Assembly: GCA_027315115.1 (NCBI GenBank)
Contig: DAHUYQ010000046.1
Span: 62,001-126,000 of the forward strand
Direction: 5' to 3'
Source: Solirubrobacterales bacterium
GTDB lineage: Bacteria; Actinomycetota; Thermoleophilia; Solirubrobacterales; Solirubrobacteraceae
Length of the DNA: 64,000 nucleotides
Shown: one piece after another, positions 39,462 to 43,769 of the stretch
Layout of the letters: each line of letters starts with the position of its first letter
How positions within the stretch are numbered: position 1 is the first letter of the stretch
The notes under the pieces: generated by a model
Told to the model about the DNA's origin: nothing
The model's input: only the letters and a program-made list of their open reading frames with translations
Database searches by the model: none
Translations under genes and position numbers: made by a program

Positions 39462-42400
39462 ATGGCCGCCGGCACAACGACCCAACAGATCGTCGATGTC
39501 GTTACGCCATCAGCAGGGGAGTCGGTCACCGAGGGGACGATCCTCGAATGGCACGTCAAGGCCGGTGACCAGATCAAGCTCGACGAGACGATCGTCGAGA
39601 TCTCCACCGACAAGGTCGACGTCGAGCTCCCCTCACCGGCCACCGGCACCGTCACCGAGATCCTCGTCTCCGAGGGCGACGTGGTCACCGTCGGCCAGGT
39701 GATCGCAAGAATCGCCGTCGGAGCCGCCGACGGGGTGGCTCCGTCCGCCCCGGCGGCCCCCGTCCCTCAGGAAGACGCCGGCGCCGCCACCCGCGAGGTG
39801 GTGGACGTGATCACGCCGGCCGCGGGCGAGTCCGTGACCGAGGGCACGATCCTCGAATGGCACGTCAAGGCCGGTGACCAGATCAAGCTCGACGAGACGA
39901 TCGTCGAGATCTCCACCGACAAGGTCGACGTCGAGCTCCCCTCACCGGCCACCGGAACCGTCACCGAGATCCTCGTCTCCGAGGGCGACGTGGTCACCGT
40001 CGGCCAGGTGATCGCAAGAATCGCCGTCGGAGCCGCCGCAGGCTCGGCCGCCGGGGCCGGCACGGCCCCCGACAGCGCGGCGGGCGCCGCGGCGCCCGCC
40101 GGCGAGATCCCCGCCGGGACACGCATCTCCCCGGTGGCCGCCAGAGCGGCGCTGGCCGAGGGCGTGGACCCGACGGCGCTCGCCGGGAGCGGTCCAGCCG
40201 GCCGCATCCTCAAGGACGATGTGCTCGCCGCCGCCAGGGCGGGCGCCAACGGTCACGGCGCCGCTGCGGCACCGGCCGCAGCGGGCCCTCCGAGCACGCC
40301 GGCCGGCGAGGCCAACCAGCCGATGCGCGGCGCCGCGGCGATGCTCGCCAAGTACATGGACGAGTCGCGCTCGGTGCCGACAGCCACGAGCTTCAGGACG
40401 ATCACCGTCAGCACGCTCGACGCCCGCCGGCGCGAGCTGAAGTCCGCGGGCCGCAAGGTCTCCTTCACACACCTGATCGCCTACGCGATAGTGGCCGCCG
40501 CGAAGGAGATGCCGGTGATGGCGGAGCACTTCGCCGAGATCGACGGCAAGCCGCACCGTGTCAGCGACGGCGCCGTCAACCTGGGGCTCGCGGTGGACGT
40601 CGAGCGCAAGGACGGCACGCGCACGCTGATGGTCCCCGTGATCAGGAACGCCGGCGCGCTCTCCTTCGACGCCTTCCTGGCCGCCTACGACGAGCTCGTC
40701 GAGAAGGCCCGCACGAACACGCTTGCGGCGGACGATCTCGCGGGCGCGAACATCACGCTCACCAACCCCGGCGGGCTGGGCACAGCGGCGTCGGTGCCGC
40801 GCCTGATGGCCGGGCAGGGCACGATCGTCGCGACCGGCTCGATCGGCTACCCCGTCGGCCTCGCTCACCTCGGCGCGCAGCTCGGGGCCGAGAAGGTGAT
40901 GACGATGACCTCGACCTACGACCACCGCGTCATCCAAGGCGCCGAGTCGGGCCGCTTCCTGGCCCAGATCGAGGAGCGCCTGCAGGGGCAGCACAGCTTC
41001 TACGAGCAGGTCTTCGCGGCGCTCGGAGCGACGCTCGCACCTGCGCCGCGGCAGCCGGCCGCGCTCGCCGCGCCCGCGCCGGCCGCCGCCCCGGCCGCCG
41101 AGCCCGACGAACAGCTGCTGATGGCTGTCGACGCGGCCGCGACGCTGCTCTCCCGCGTGCGCAGCCACGGCCACCTCGCGGCTCATCTCGACCCGCTGGG
41201 CAGCGAGCCGGTCGGCGACCCGCAGCTCGAACCGGCATCCGCGGGCCTGACGCCCGAGCTGATGGCAAAGGTGCCCACACGCGTGCTGCAAACCTACGTC
41301 GAGGGCGAGACGCTCGCGCAGGCGCTGCCGCATCTGCGCGAGATCTACTGCGGCACGATCGCCTACGAGGTCGAGCACATCGCCTCCCACCGCCAGCGCG
41401 CATGGCTGCGAGAGAAGATCGAGTCCGAGGCGTTTCGCGCCGAGCTCAATGCGGCCAAGCGCCAGGCGCTGCTCAAGCGCCTGATCGAGGTGGACGCGCT
41501 GGAGCGCTTCATGCACAAGGCATACCTGGGCCAGCACCAGTTCTCTATCGAGGGCCTGGACATGACGGTGCCGATGCTTGACGAGACGATCCAGCTCGCC
41601 GCGAGCGCGGCCAGCCGCGAAGTGGTGATCGGCATGGCCCACCGTGGGCGCCTCAACGTGCTCGCGCACAACATGAGCCGCCCCTACGACACGATCTTCG
41701 CCGAGTTCGAGGGCGCCTCCACGCTGGAGGTCGTCACCACGATCCCGCAGGGCGGCACCGGCGACGTCAAGTACCACCACGGCGAGCACGGCACCTACAA
41801 GCTCCCCGACGGCGGCACGATCAACGTCAACCTCGAGTCCAACCCCTCCCACCTGGAGTACGTGGCACCGGTGGTCGAGGGCGCCACGAGGGCCAGCCAG
41901 ACCTCCCGCAAGGGTCCGCACGCCCAGCAGGACACCAACGCCGCGATCCCGATCGTGATCCACGGTGACGCGTCCTTCCCGGGCCAGGGCGTGGTGGCCG
42001 AGACGCTCAACCTGCAGGCGCTCGACGGCTACAAGGTCGGCGGCACCATCCACATCATCATGAACAACCAGATCGGCTTCACGACCGATCCCGAGGACGC
42101 GCGCTCGACCCGCTGGGCCTCCGATCTGGCCAAGGGATTCGACGTGCCGATCATCCACGTCAACGCCGACGACGTCGAAGCCTGCATCAGCGCCGTGCAC
42201 CTCGCCTTCGCCTTCCGCCAGGAGTTCGGCCACGACGTGATGATCGACCTGATCGGCTACCGCCGCTTCGGGCATAACGAGTCGGATGAGCCCGCCTACA
42301 CGCAGCCTGAGATGTACGCGACGATCAAGGCCAAGAAGCGGGTCTTCGAAGTGTGGGCGCAGCACCTGACAGCCGACGGCACGGTCACCCAGGAACAGGT

Positions 42401-43769
42401 CGATCAGCTCGGCCAGAGCGTGTGGGACAACCTGACCTCGCAGCACCAGCGGCTGAAGTCGCGGATCGCGGCGGCCGCCGAACAGGGCAGCGTCGAGCAG
42501 GGCACCGGCGAGTACCAGCTCGACCGCTCCCCCAGCCCCGAGGTCGGCACCGCGGTGCCGGTCGATGATCTGCTCAAGCTCGGCGACGATCTGCTTCGCA
42601 TTCCCGACGGATTCACCGTGCACCGCAAGCTCGTCACGCAGCTCGCCAGGCGCCGCGCCGCCCTGCATCCCGAGGAGGGGCAGCAGCCCGGCACGATCGA
42701 CTGGGCCCATGCCGAGGCGCTCGCGTTCGCATCGCTGCTCACCGAGGGAACCTCGATCAGGCTGACCGGCCAGGACTCGGAGCGCGGCACCTACAGCCAG
42801 CGTCACATGGTCCTGCACGACGAGAAGACCGGCCGGGTGTATAGCCCGATCCAGAACCTCGCGGACGCCCAGGCTCCGCTGGAGCTGCACAACAGCCCGC
42901 TCTCCGAGCTCGCCTGCCTGGGCTTCGAGTACGGCTACAGCCAGGAGGCGCCAGAGACACTGGTGCTCTGGGAGGCCCAGTACGGCGACTTCGTCAACTC
43001 AGCGCAGGTGATCATCGACCAGTTCATCGTCTCCGGCCTTGCCAAGTGGGGGCAGACCTCGCGCCTTACGCTGCTGCTGCCGCACGGCTACGAGGGCTCC
43101 GGACCCGAGCATTCCTCCGCGCGTCTGGAGCGATTCCTATCACTGGCTGCCGAGGGGAACATCAGGGTCGCCAACCCCACCACCCCGGCTCAGTACTTCC
43201 ATCTGCTGCGTCGCCAGGCGCGGATCGCCAAGCAGCGGCCGCTGATCGTGATGACGCCGAAGTCGCTGCTGCGGCTGCCTCAGGCCACCAGCACGCTGGC
43301 CGAGCTCTCCGGGCAGAGCGCCTTCCAGCCGGTGCTGGCCGAGCCGGGCGTGCAGGCCGAGAAGGTCACGCGCCTGGTGCTCTGCACCGGCAAGATCTAC
43401 TACGACGTGGTCGGCCACGCAGACCGCGCCGCCGCGGAGGGGCTCGCGGTGGGACGCGTCGAGCTGCTCTATCCGTTCCCGGAGGCACAGGTGCTGGAGC
43501 TAATCGACAGCTACCGCAACCTGCGCGAAATCCTCTGGGTCCAGGAGGAGCCGCGCAACATGGGCGCGCGCGCCCACATGTTCCCGAGGCTGATGCAGAT
43601 CATGCCGGCGCGGATTCGCTTCGGCTACGTCGGCCGTCCCGAGCGTGCAAGCCCAGGCGAGGGCTATCCCGCCGCCCACGCCGGCGAGCAGAGCAGGATC
43701 GTGACGACCGCGATCGACCTCGGCATCCCGATCTCGCAGTACCCGCGCAAGACGCCGGGCGAGCGCTGA
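39462..43769 (+). CDS. kgd: Fused 2-oxoglutarate dehydrogenase E2/E1 (Kgd/OdhA type) with two N-terminal lipoyl domains
   Basis: The 1435-residue protein combines lipoyl domain 1 (about 8-85, Lys51 in EISTDKVDVEL), lipoyl domain 2 (about 111-188, Lys154), an E3-binding domain (222-258, ISPVAARAALAEGVDPTALA), an E2 acyltransferase domain (285 to about 515, with DHRVIQGAESG at 487) and a full thiamine-dependent E1 (about 590-1435, HGDASFPGQG at 834 and MNNQIGF). It converts 2-oxoglutarate to succinyl-CoA. Mycobacterial Kgd and corynebacterial OdhA share the E2-E1 fusion but lack lipoyl domains and borrow them from AceF. Having both lipoyl and E3-binding domains here suggests a self-contained enzyme needing only E3. 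TAGAGT lies 11 nt before the ATG. Confidence 0.96.
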   Translation: MAAGTTTQQIVDVVTPSAGESVTEGTILEWHVKAGDQIKLDETIVEISTDKVDVELPSPATGTVTEILVSEGDVVTVGQVIARIAVGAADGVAPSAPAAPVPQEDAGAATREVVDVITPAAGESVTEGTILEWHVKAGDQIKLDETIVEISTDKVDVELPSPATGTVTEILVSEGDVVTVGQVIARIAVGAAAGSAAGAGTAPDSAAGAAAPAGEIPAGTRISPVAARAALAEGVDPTALAGSGPAGRILKDDVLAAARAGANGHGAAAAPAAAGPPSTPAGEANQPMRGAAAMLAKYMDESRSVPTATSFRTITVSTLDARRRELKSAGRKVSFTHLIAYAIVAAAKEMPVMAEHFAEIDGKPHRVSDGAVNLGLAVDVERKDGTRTLMVPVIRNAGALSFDAFLAAYDELVEKARTNTLAADDLAGANITLTNPGGLGTAASVPRLMAGQGTIVATGSIGYPVGLAHLGAQLGAEKVMTMTSTYDHRVIQGAESGRFLAQIEERLQGQHSFYEQVFAALGATLAPAPRQPAALAAPAPAAAPAAEPDEQLLMAVDAAATLLSRVRSHGHLAAHLDPLGSEPVGDPQLEPASAGLTPELMAKVPTRVLQTYVEGETLAQALPHLREIYCGTIAYEVEHIASHRQRAWLREKIESEAFRAELNAAKRQALLKRLIEVDALERFMHKAYLGQHQFSIEGLDMTVPMLDETIQLAASAASREVVIGMAHRGRLNVLAHNMSRPYDTIFAEFEGASTLEVVTTIPQGGTGDVKYHHGEHGTYKLPDGGTINVNLESNPSHLEYVAPVVEGATRASQTSRKGPHAQQDTNAAIPIVIHGDASFPGQGVVAETLNLQALDGYKVGGTIHIIMNNQIGFTTDPEDARSTRWASDLAKGFDVPIIHVNADDVEACISAVHLAFAFRQEFGHDVMIDLIGYRRFGHNESDEPAYTQPEMYATIKAKKRVFEVWAQHLTADGTVTQEQVDQLGQSVWDNLTSQHQRLKSRIAAAAEQGSVEQGTGEYQLDRSPSPEVGTAVPVDDLLKLGDDLLRIPDGFTVHRKLVTQLARRRAALHPEEGQQPGTIDWAHAEALAFASLLTEGTSIRLTGQDSERGTYSQRHMVLHDEKTGRVYSPIQNLADAQAPLELHNSPLSELACLGFEYGYSQEAPETLVLWEAQYGDFVNSAQVIIDQFIVSGLAKWGQTSRLTLLLPHGYEGSGPEHSSARLERFLSLAAEGNIRVANPTTPAQYFHLLRRQARIAKQRPLIVMTPKSLLRLPQATSTLAELSGQSAFQPVLAEPGVQAEKVTRLVLCTGKIYYDVVGHADRAAAEGLAVGRVELLYPFPEAQVLELIDSYRNLREILWVQEEPRNMGARAHMFPRLMQIMPARIRFGYVGRPERASPGEGYPAAHAGEQSRIVTTAIDLGIPISQYPRKTPGER
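39537..39729 (+). repeat. Near-identical lipoyl-domain repeat, copy 1
   Basis: 193 bp encoding most of lipoyl domain 1. It matches 39846-40038 at every position except 39647 (C here, A at 39956), a silent glycine codon change. Offset is 309 bp, exactly 103 codons. Confidence 0.95.
39846..40038 (+). repeat. Near-identical lipoyl-domain repeat, copy 2
   Basis: 193 bp encoding most of lipoyl domain 2, 192 of 193 bases identical to copy 1. The flanking linkers differ, so the duplication or gene conversion is limited to the domain core. Confidence 0.95.

Follow-up and report, generated by a model that had tools for sequence, protein, structure and literature searches.

We report a fused 2-oxoglutarate dehydrogenase (ODH) gene that encodes its own lipoyl arms. 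It lies in a stretch of 64,000 nucleotides, hereafter the window, from a Solirubrobacterales bacterium whose genome (G000) is 90.65% complete and 2.2% contaminated. ODH is a central energy enzyme. The gene joins two lipoyl domains and a peripheral-subunit binding domain, the docking site of dihydrolipoyl dehydrogenase (E3), to an E2o succinyltransferase and a whole E1o decarboxylase of the OdhA type. We consider it probable (about 0.8) that the product is a self-contained OdhA, which would need only E3 and would be independent of the E2 of pyruvate dehydrogenase (PDH; its E2 is termed E2p). Lipoylation, the docking of E3, the assembly of the complex and its independence from E2p are inferred. 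We found no description of a lipoyl-bearing OdhA fusion in the titles and opening abstract lines of the open-access papers searched, which included no preprints; it may be described elsewhere.

Domain order and the E2o-E1o core

The gene is an uninterrupted frame that starts with ATG and encodes 1435 amino acids (aa). Reading of the open reading frames (ORF) and a Pfam search gave the following features, in order from the N- to the C-terminus:

39462-43769, + strand: lipoyl-bearing fused 2-oxoglutarate dehydrogenase, an OdhA-type E2o-E1o with arms (ORF, Pfam, NF008907)
39495-39713, + strand: lipoyl domain 1, Biotin_lipoyl, 83.6 bits; codon of the lipoyl Lys51 at 39612-39614
39804-40022, + strand: lipoyl domain 2, 83.6 bits; codon of the lipoyl Lys154 at 39921-39923
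40122-40226, + strand: peripheral-subunit (E3) binding domain, residues 221-255 (PF02817, 37.9 bits, cut-off 23.7)
40308-40985, + strand: E2o catalytic domain, residues 283-508, with the HRVIQG active site (His488, Gln492; 2-oxoacid_dh, 157.1 bits)
41100-43718, + strand: E1o part, the thiamine-diphosphate 2-oxoglutarate decarboxylase (NF006914, 1095 bits, and three Pfam domains)

Biotin_lipoyl matched in two stretches, with 147.9 bits protein-wide and residues 12-84 as the best stretch. The three Pfam domains of the E1o part were E1_dh (residues 700-996, 178.4 bits), Transket_pyr (1078-1271, 153.0 bits) and OxoGdeHyase_C (1277-1417, 128.0 bits). The interdomain linkers consist of Ala and Pro to 54-59%. 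NF008907, the equivalog model of the fused enzyme, scored 1492.2 bits (cut-off 878), and its match is confined to residues 263-1419 because the model has no lipoyl part. The original prediction, made from the letters alone, had described this arrangement in one frame and had named Lys51 and Lys154 as the lipoyl lysines. It agrees on both counts with the ORF and Pfam results, and both lysines stand in a DKV motif. The same domain order is found in Patulibacter minatonensis DSM 18081 (locus L093).

The lipoyl lysine is kept in all 103 lipoyl domains of the 57 intact proteins that we collected from the class (see below). We compared 14 lipoyl domains of fused proteins with reference domains. The top-scoring reference was in each case the SucB lipoyl domain of family f7, and never a PDH-type lipoyl domain of the window genome; f7 belongs to the same class, and kinship may contribute to this result. 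The two lipoyl domains of the window protein are identical at 68 of the 90 codons compared and share an exact repeat of 110 bases. In the 34 other two-domain proteins the identity between domains 1 and 2 ranged from 43 to 85% (median 56.5%). Lipoyl domain 1 of the window protein looks like domain 2 of its relatives. Together with the near-identical DNA, this suggests a recent gene conversion or duplication inside the gene.

The best sequence matches in the PDB were KGD of Mycobacterium smegmatis and OdhA of Corynebacterium glutamicum (PDB 8P5R-8P5X and 2XT6), with 920 and 849 bits; 8P5R matched with 920 bits over residues 257-1418. Like the window protein, these are one-chain E2o-E1o fusions. 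The OdhA structures tie Ser129, Thr258, Tyr314, His316 and Gln320 to succinyl-CoA (PMC10415282; this source and PMC8146983 are cited throughout from part of their text). We placed these residues by hand on the PDB alignments, in which the chain numbering of 8P5T equals that of the paper plus 2. They correspond to Ser310, Thr434, Tyr486, His488 and Gln492, each invariant in the 28 lipoyl-bearing members aligned, and the E2 active site has Gln in place of the usual Asp, as in OdhA and KGD. Phe340 of the insertion that limits OdhA to a trimer corresponds to Phe513, which is equally invariant (28/28). The phosphomimetic Asp795 at the OdhI/GarA site falls on Ser986, a variable position of alignment A1 in a poorly aligned stretch.

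What sets the window protein apart from OdhA and KGD is the N-terminus. The studied proteins lack lipoyl and E3-binding domains, begin with a helical N-terminal segment and need the lipoyl groups of E2p, whereas in the window protein two lipoyl domains and an E3-binding domain occupy the place of that segment. The original prediction held that mycobacterial Kgd and corynebacterial OdhA have no lipoyl domains and rely on those of E2p. PMC10415282 bears this out for OdhA, describing lipoyl groups supplied in trans by E2p, and PMC8146983 also gives OdhA no lipoyl groups of its own. By these comparisons the core is that of an OdhA family member, and two hallmarks of the studied members, the lack of arms and the N-terminal segment, are not found. 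The N-terminal part recalls SucB (e.g., of Escherichia coli) in its order of lipoyl, E3-binding and catalytic domains and in its lipoyl domains, which are nearest to those of SucB. Yet its E2 part falls in the OdhA clade, carries HRVIQG instead of HRxxDG, and is joined to a whole E1o. The SucB model TIGR01347 scored 265.8 bits, under its cut-off of 378.65.

The N-terminal segment typical of SucA (PF16078) was matched by Pfam in 53 of the 60 lipoyl-less fusions and in eight of the 10 separate E1o, and in none of the 28 lipoyl-bearing members, all of which matched Biotin_lipoyl and E3_binding. The two forms differ mostly in what precedes a common E2-E1 core. Five of the fused misses (L089, L091, L092, L094 and L096, labelled Chloroflexi, Gemmatimonadetes and Cellulomonas) lie near the lipoyl-bearing clade and have neither PF16078 nor a lipoyl or E3-binding domain, so the exchange is not universal. 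The other two fused misses are probably L122 and L152, which are truncated at contig ends. The misses among the separate E1o were L163 and L164, of family f10. The N-terminal region of OdhA has been suggested to contact other components of the complex (PMC10415282).

AlphaFold monomer models were made for residues 1-520 (mean pLDDT 79.5) and for the E2-E1 core (mean pLDDT 72.5, pTM 0.64). The first contains two lipoyl beta folds (lipoyl domain 1 at pLDDT of about 85-95) and an E3-binding domain with helices at 224-233 and 251-262, flanked by linkers with pLDDT below 50. In a fold search with these 520 residues, OdhA/KGD entries took ranks 3-11 (42-46% identity and a root-mean-square deviation, rmsd, of 2.3-3.6 over ~245 columns). 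In the search with the core model they took ranks 1-10.

Distribution of the lipoyl-bearing form

A survey of which actinobacteria carry the lipoyl-bearing form had been proposed with the original prediction. We ran it with the fused-enzyme model on 149 genomes of the window's class, and 86 of them passed the cut-off, 58 with fused frames and 28 with E1-only frames. We inspected all 58 fused frames and one below the cut-off. The 5' end was intact in 57 of these 59 genes, the window gene included, and all 57 had a lipoyl and an E3-binding domain. Contig ends truncate the other two, of which L016 keeps the E3-binding domain, and L029 keeps this domain and a partial lipoyl domain. The fused frames belong to families f1-f3, all of the window's order, and to another family of the class, f5; the E1-only frames are from families f7 and f10, plus one f5 genome (G125). 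In family f4, also of the window's order, two genomes had E2-type matches only. The lipoyl-bearing form is therefore no one-off; f1-f3 and f5 have it as a rule. The proteins are widely divergent, with 52-70% identity to the window protein in alignment A1.

Elsewhere in the phylum, a survey of 396 genomes gave 150 matches, all outside the class, and was followed up in 33 genomes. We read 78 fused N-termini: the 30 best of the 150 matches, 40 others of them chosen because their frames were long or their N-termini unmatched, and eight from the follow-up. None of these 78 had a lipoyl or E3-binding domain, although one of them, L182, is truncated where its contig begins. The lipoyl profile used was built from the class's own domains and, as a control, recovered the lipoyl domains of E. 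coli SucB and of the SucB-like E2 of family f7. Family f21 of the phylum encodes a separate E1o, usually with an E2 gene nearby.

A scan of named genomes gave 589 confirmed matches, of which we analysed the 80 best. These comprise 14 intact lipoyl-bearing fusions, 60 lipoyl-less fusions, five E1-only loci (of which L084 is a contig-edge fragment) and a 15th lipoyl-bearing locus, L095, with a lipoyl domain within a broken frame. Pfam found neither Biotin_lipoyl nor E3_binding in the 60 lipoyl-less N-termini, of which those of L122 and L152 are too short to judge. The labels of the 15 lipoyl-bearing loci are Solirubrobacterales or Solirubrobacteraceae (six), Candidatus Eremiobacterota (three), Actinomycetota or Actinomycetes (two), Thermoleophilia, P. 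minatonensis, Chlamydiae and Bifidobacterium breve (one each). The loci labelled Eremiobacterota, Chlamydiae and B. breve come from metagenome bins (the Chlamydiae title lacks "MAG"), and these labels are unconfirmed. In the trees, 14 of the 15 branch among the genes of the class; L095 was left out.

Lipoyl-less fused OdhA occurred in records labelled Acidobacteria, Gemmatimonadetes, Chloroflexi, Bacteroidetes, Ignavibacteria, Planctomycetota and Desulfobulbaceae (within L086-L097 and L101-L150). The fused OdhA has been presented as a signature of the class Actinobacteria (PMC10415282). Given its presence in records with these other labels, the fusion is not confined to Actinobacteria. The nearest lipoyl-less relatives of the core, with 52-58% identity in the best segment, are OdhA labelled Gemmatimonadota or Chloroflexota (among L086-L097). 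These nine loci differ from the window gene in having neither lipoyl nor E3-binding domains, and four of them (L086, L087, L088 and L097, labelled Gemmatimonadota) carry PF16078.

Other E1, E2 and E3 genes of the genome

In the window genome, no gene but the fused one passed the E1o cut-off; two E3 genes and lipA passed theirs. We found no recognisable separate SucB in this genome, and no sucB with a second sucA among the surroundings of its E2 genes. Besides the fused gene there are four places with an E2 catalytic domain, three in PDH-type surroundings and one beside E3:

C11:72990: accompanied by an E1-beta gene
C24:90112: accompanied by E1 alpha/beta genes and a free lipoyl protein
C40/C44: apparently a single gene split between the ends of two contigs, accompanied by E1 alpha/beta genes
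C11:110996: a catalytic domain alone, adjacent to E3

Lipoyl domains that cannot be lipoylated, together with a normal separate SucB, would have spoken against the original prediction. The conserved lysines and the position of the other E2 genes, beside alpha/beta E1 or E3, give no sign of either. Alpha/beta-type E1 genes serve pyruvate or branched-chain substrates. Elsewhere in the class, among the genomes with a fused gene, each of the six separate E2 genes that scored best with the SucB model has an alpha/beta-type E1 gene at a distance of about 1 kb or less.

Some of these places are of interest in their own right. On C24 (L153:5266-10760) the E2 is split: the locus encodes E1 alpha, E1 beta and a free-standing lipoyl protein of ~79 aa, and an E2 catalytic domain without a lipoyl domain lies ~2.5 kb beyond the latter. 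On C11 (L155:5933-8644) an E3 gene is followed by a lone E2 catalytic domain of 232 aa, in which no lipoyl or E3-binding domain was found. This E2 has DHRIVYG in place of the usual HxxxDG, and the PDH-type E2 of L154 likewise has Tyr (DHRILYG). On C58 (L283:6899-11017) one E3 lies 1.8 kb upstream of lipA, with a DsbA-like frame of 224 aa in between.

Origin of the arms and working of the complex

Trees were built on selections from 139 E1 rows (77 used) and 122 E2 rows (69 used), both sets having already been thinned from those first collected. The E2 parts of the fusions formed one clade (support 100) that excluded the SucB and PDH-type E2 included for comparison. In the E1 tree the lipoyl-bearing genes grouped with the separate E1o of f7 and f10 and stood beside the lipoyl-less fusions labelled Gemmatimonadota and Chloroflexota. 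A single lipoyl-bearing clade was not rejected on E1 (p-AU 0.644, with a higher likelihood when constrained) and was drawn weakly on E2 (support 45). A single clade of all lipoyl-less fusions was rejected on E1 (p-AU 8.8e-6), whereas on E2 it was not (p-AU 0.658). The two parts thus disagree on gain or loss of the arms; a gain by a lipoyl-less ancestor is favoured by the E1 tree and by the usual presence of PF16078 in lipoyl-less forms. The separate E1o of f7 and f10 (L158-L164 and L098-L100) fall within the lipoyl-bearing fused genes, suggesting a split or replacement of the fused gene in these families.

If the enzyme is self-contained, its cycle may be as follows. The E1o part would decarboxylate 2-oxoglutarate and reductively succinylate the lipoyl group on a lipoyl domain of its own chain. 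The flexible linkers, rich in Ala, Pro and Gly, would bring the charged arm to the E2o part, where the succinyl group would pass to CoA. The arm would then be re-oxidised by the dihydrolipoyl dehydrogenase held by the E3-binding domain. The complete complex would consist of two gene products, the fused protein and E3, and could dispense with the lipoyl domains that the PDH E2 provides. A hexamer like that of OdhA and KGD, a trimer of dimers, is expected for the E2o and E1o parts, with the arms replacing the N-terminal segment.

Would the protein, in spite of its own arms, still work in a mixed complex with PDH, like that of C. glutamicum, with its arms or the E2p domains shared? The window genome does retain PDH-type E2 proteins bearing lipoyl domains, the Phe of the trimer-limiting insertion is conserved, and the E3-binding domain could serve E3 to both complexes. 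Yet the lipoyl domains score highest with those of the SucB type, and the segment that possibly contacts other components is missing from every one of the lipoyl-bearing members searched for it. In addition, the PDH-type E2 of L154 aligns with human PDH E2 to within two residues of the C-terminus; hence this one alignment, from one genome, offers no hint of the C-terminal insertion that goes with the small E2p of actinobacteria. We regard such a shared complex as unlikely. It is less likely still that the arms are vestigial or structural, i.e., unlipoylated or idle while lipoyl groups still come in trans. Sequence cannot reveal lipoylation, but disused domains would be expected to lose the lysine in some lineages, and these divergent proteins keep it throughout. 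An artefact, joining a sucB-like gene to a kgd-like gene by an assembly or frame error, was rejected as regards the domain order and has a negligible chance. Near-identical lipoyl DNA can trouble assembly; even so, the domain order is identical in all 57 intact members of the class, which come from different genomes and contigs, and in the 14 intact named loci, and the E2 part bears the active-site signature of OdhA, not that of SucB. The frame error that could have undone the original prediction was thus not found.

Several observations weigh against a self-contained complex, or against parts of it. The same core relies in C. glutamicum on lipoyl groups from outside its own chain (PMC10415282), and the window genome has a lipoyl-bearing PDH-type E2, so additional sharing with E2p is possible. 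Only one lipoyl domain is present in 11 of the 57 intact class proteins, the other 46 having two. TIGR01347 stayed below its cut-off in all 149 class genomes, including the families with a separate E1o, and the absence of sucB therefore rests on gene context, not on this cut-off. The helix insertion of OdhA (296-302) is shorter by four residues in the window's family, whereas it has its full length in other lipoyl-bearing families; hexamer contacts may therefore differ in the former. Finally, the core model departs from the OdhA/KGD entries by an rmsd of 26-29 over the full chain, i.e., it does not reproduce the relative placing of the domains.

We still favour the self-contained OdhA. Its extension to the whole clade is more tentative, at somewhat less than even odds: an ODH of two gene products and without an E2 cage, in which the N-terminal docking segment of a hexameric E2o-E1o core would have given way to an E3 clamp and to arms of the enzyme's own. 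If the arms were regained by a lipoyl-less ancestor that depended on E2p, as the E1 tree suggests, the enzyme would have become independent again after ceding its arms to PDH. How the lipoyl domains of E2p serve both PDH and OdhA is described as an open question (PMC10415282). A natural OdhA with arms would be the missing comparison, one that separates the effect of the E2o-E1o fusion from that of borrowing arms, and it would offer a small two-component ODH for structural work.
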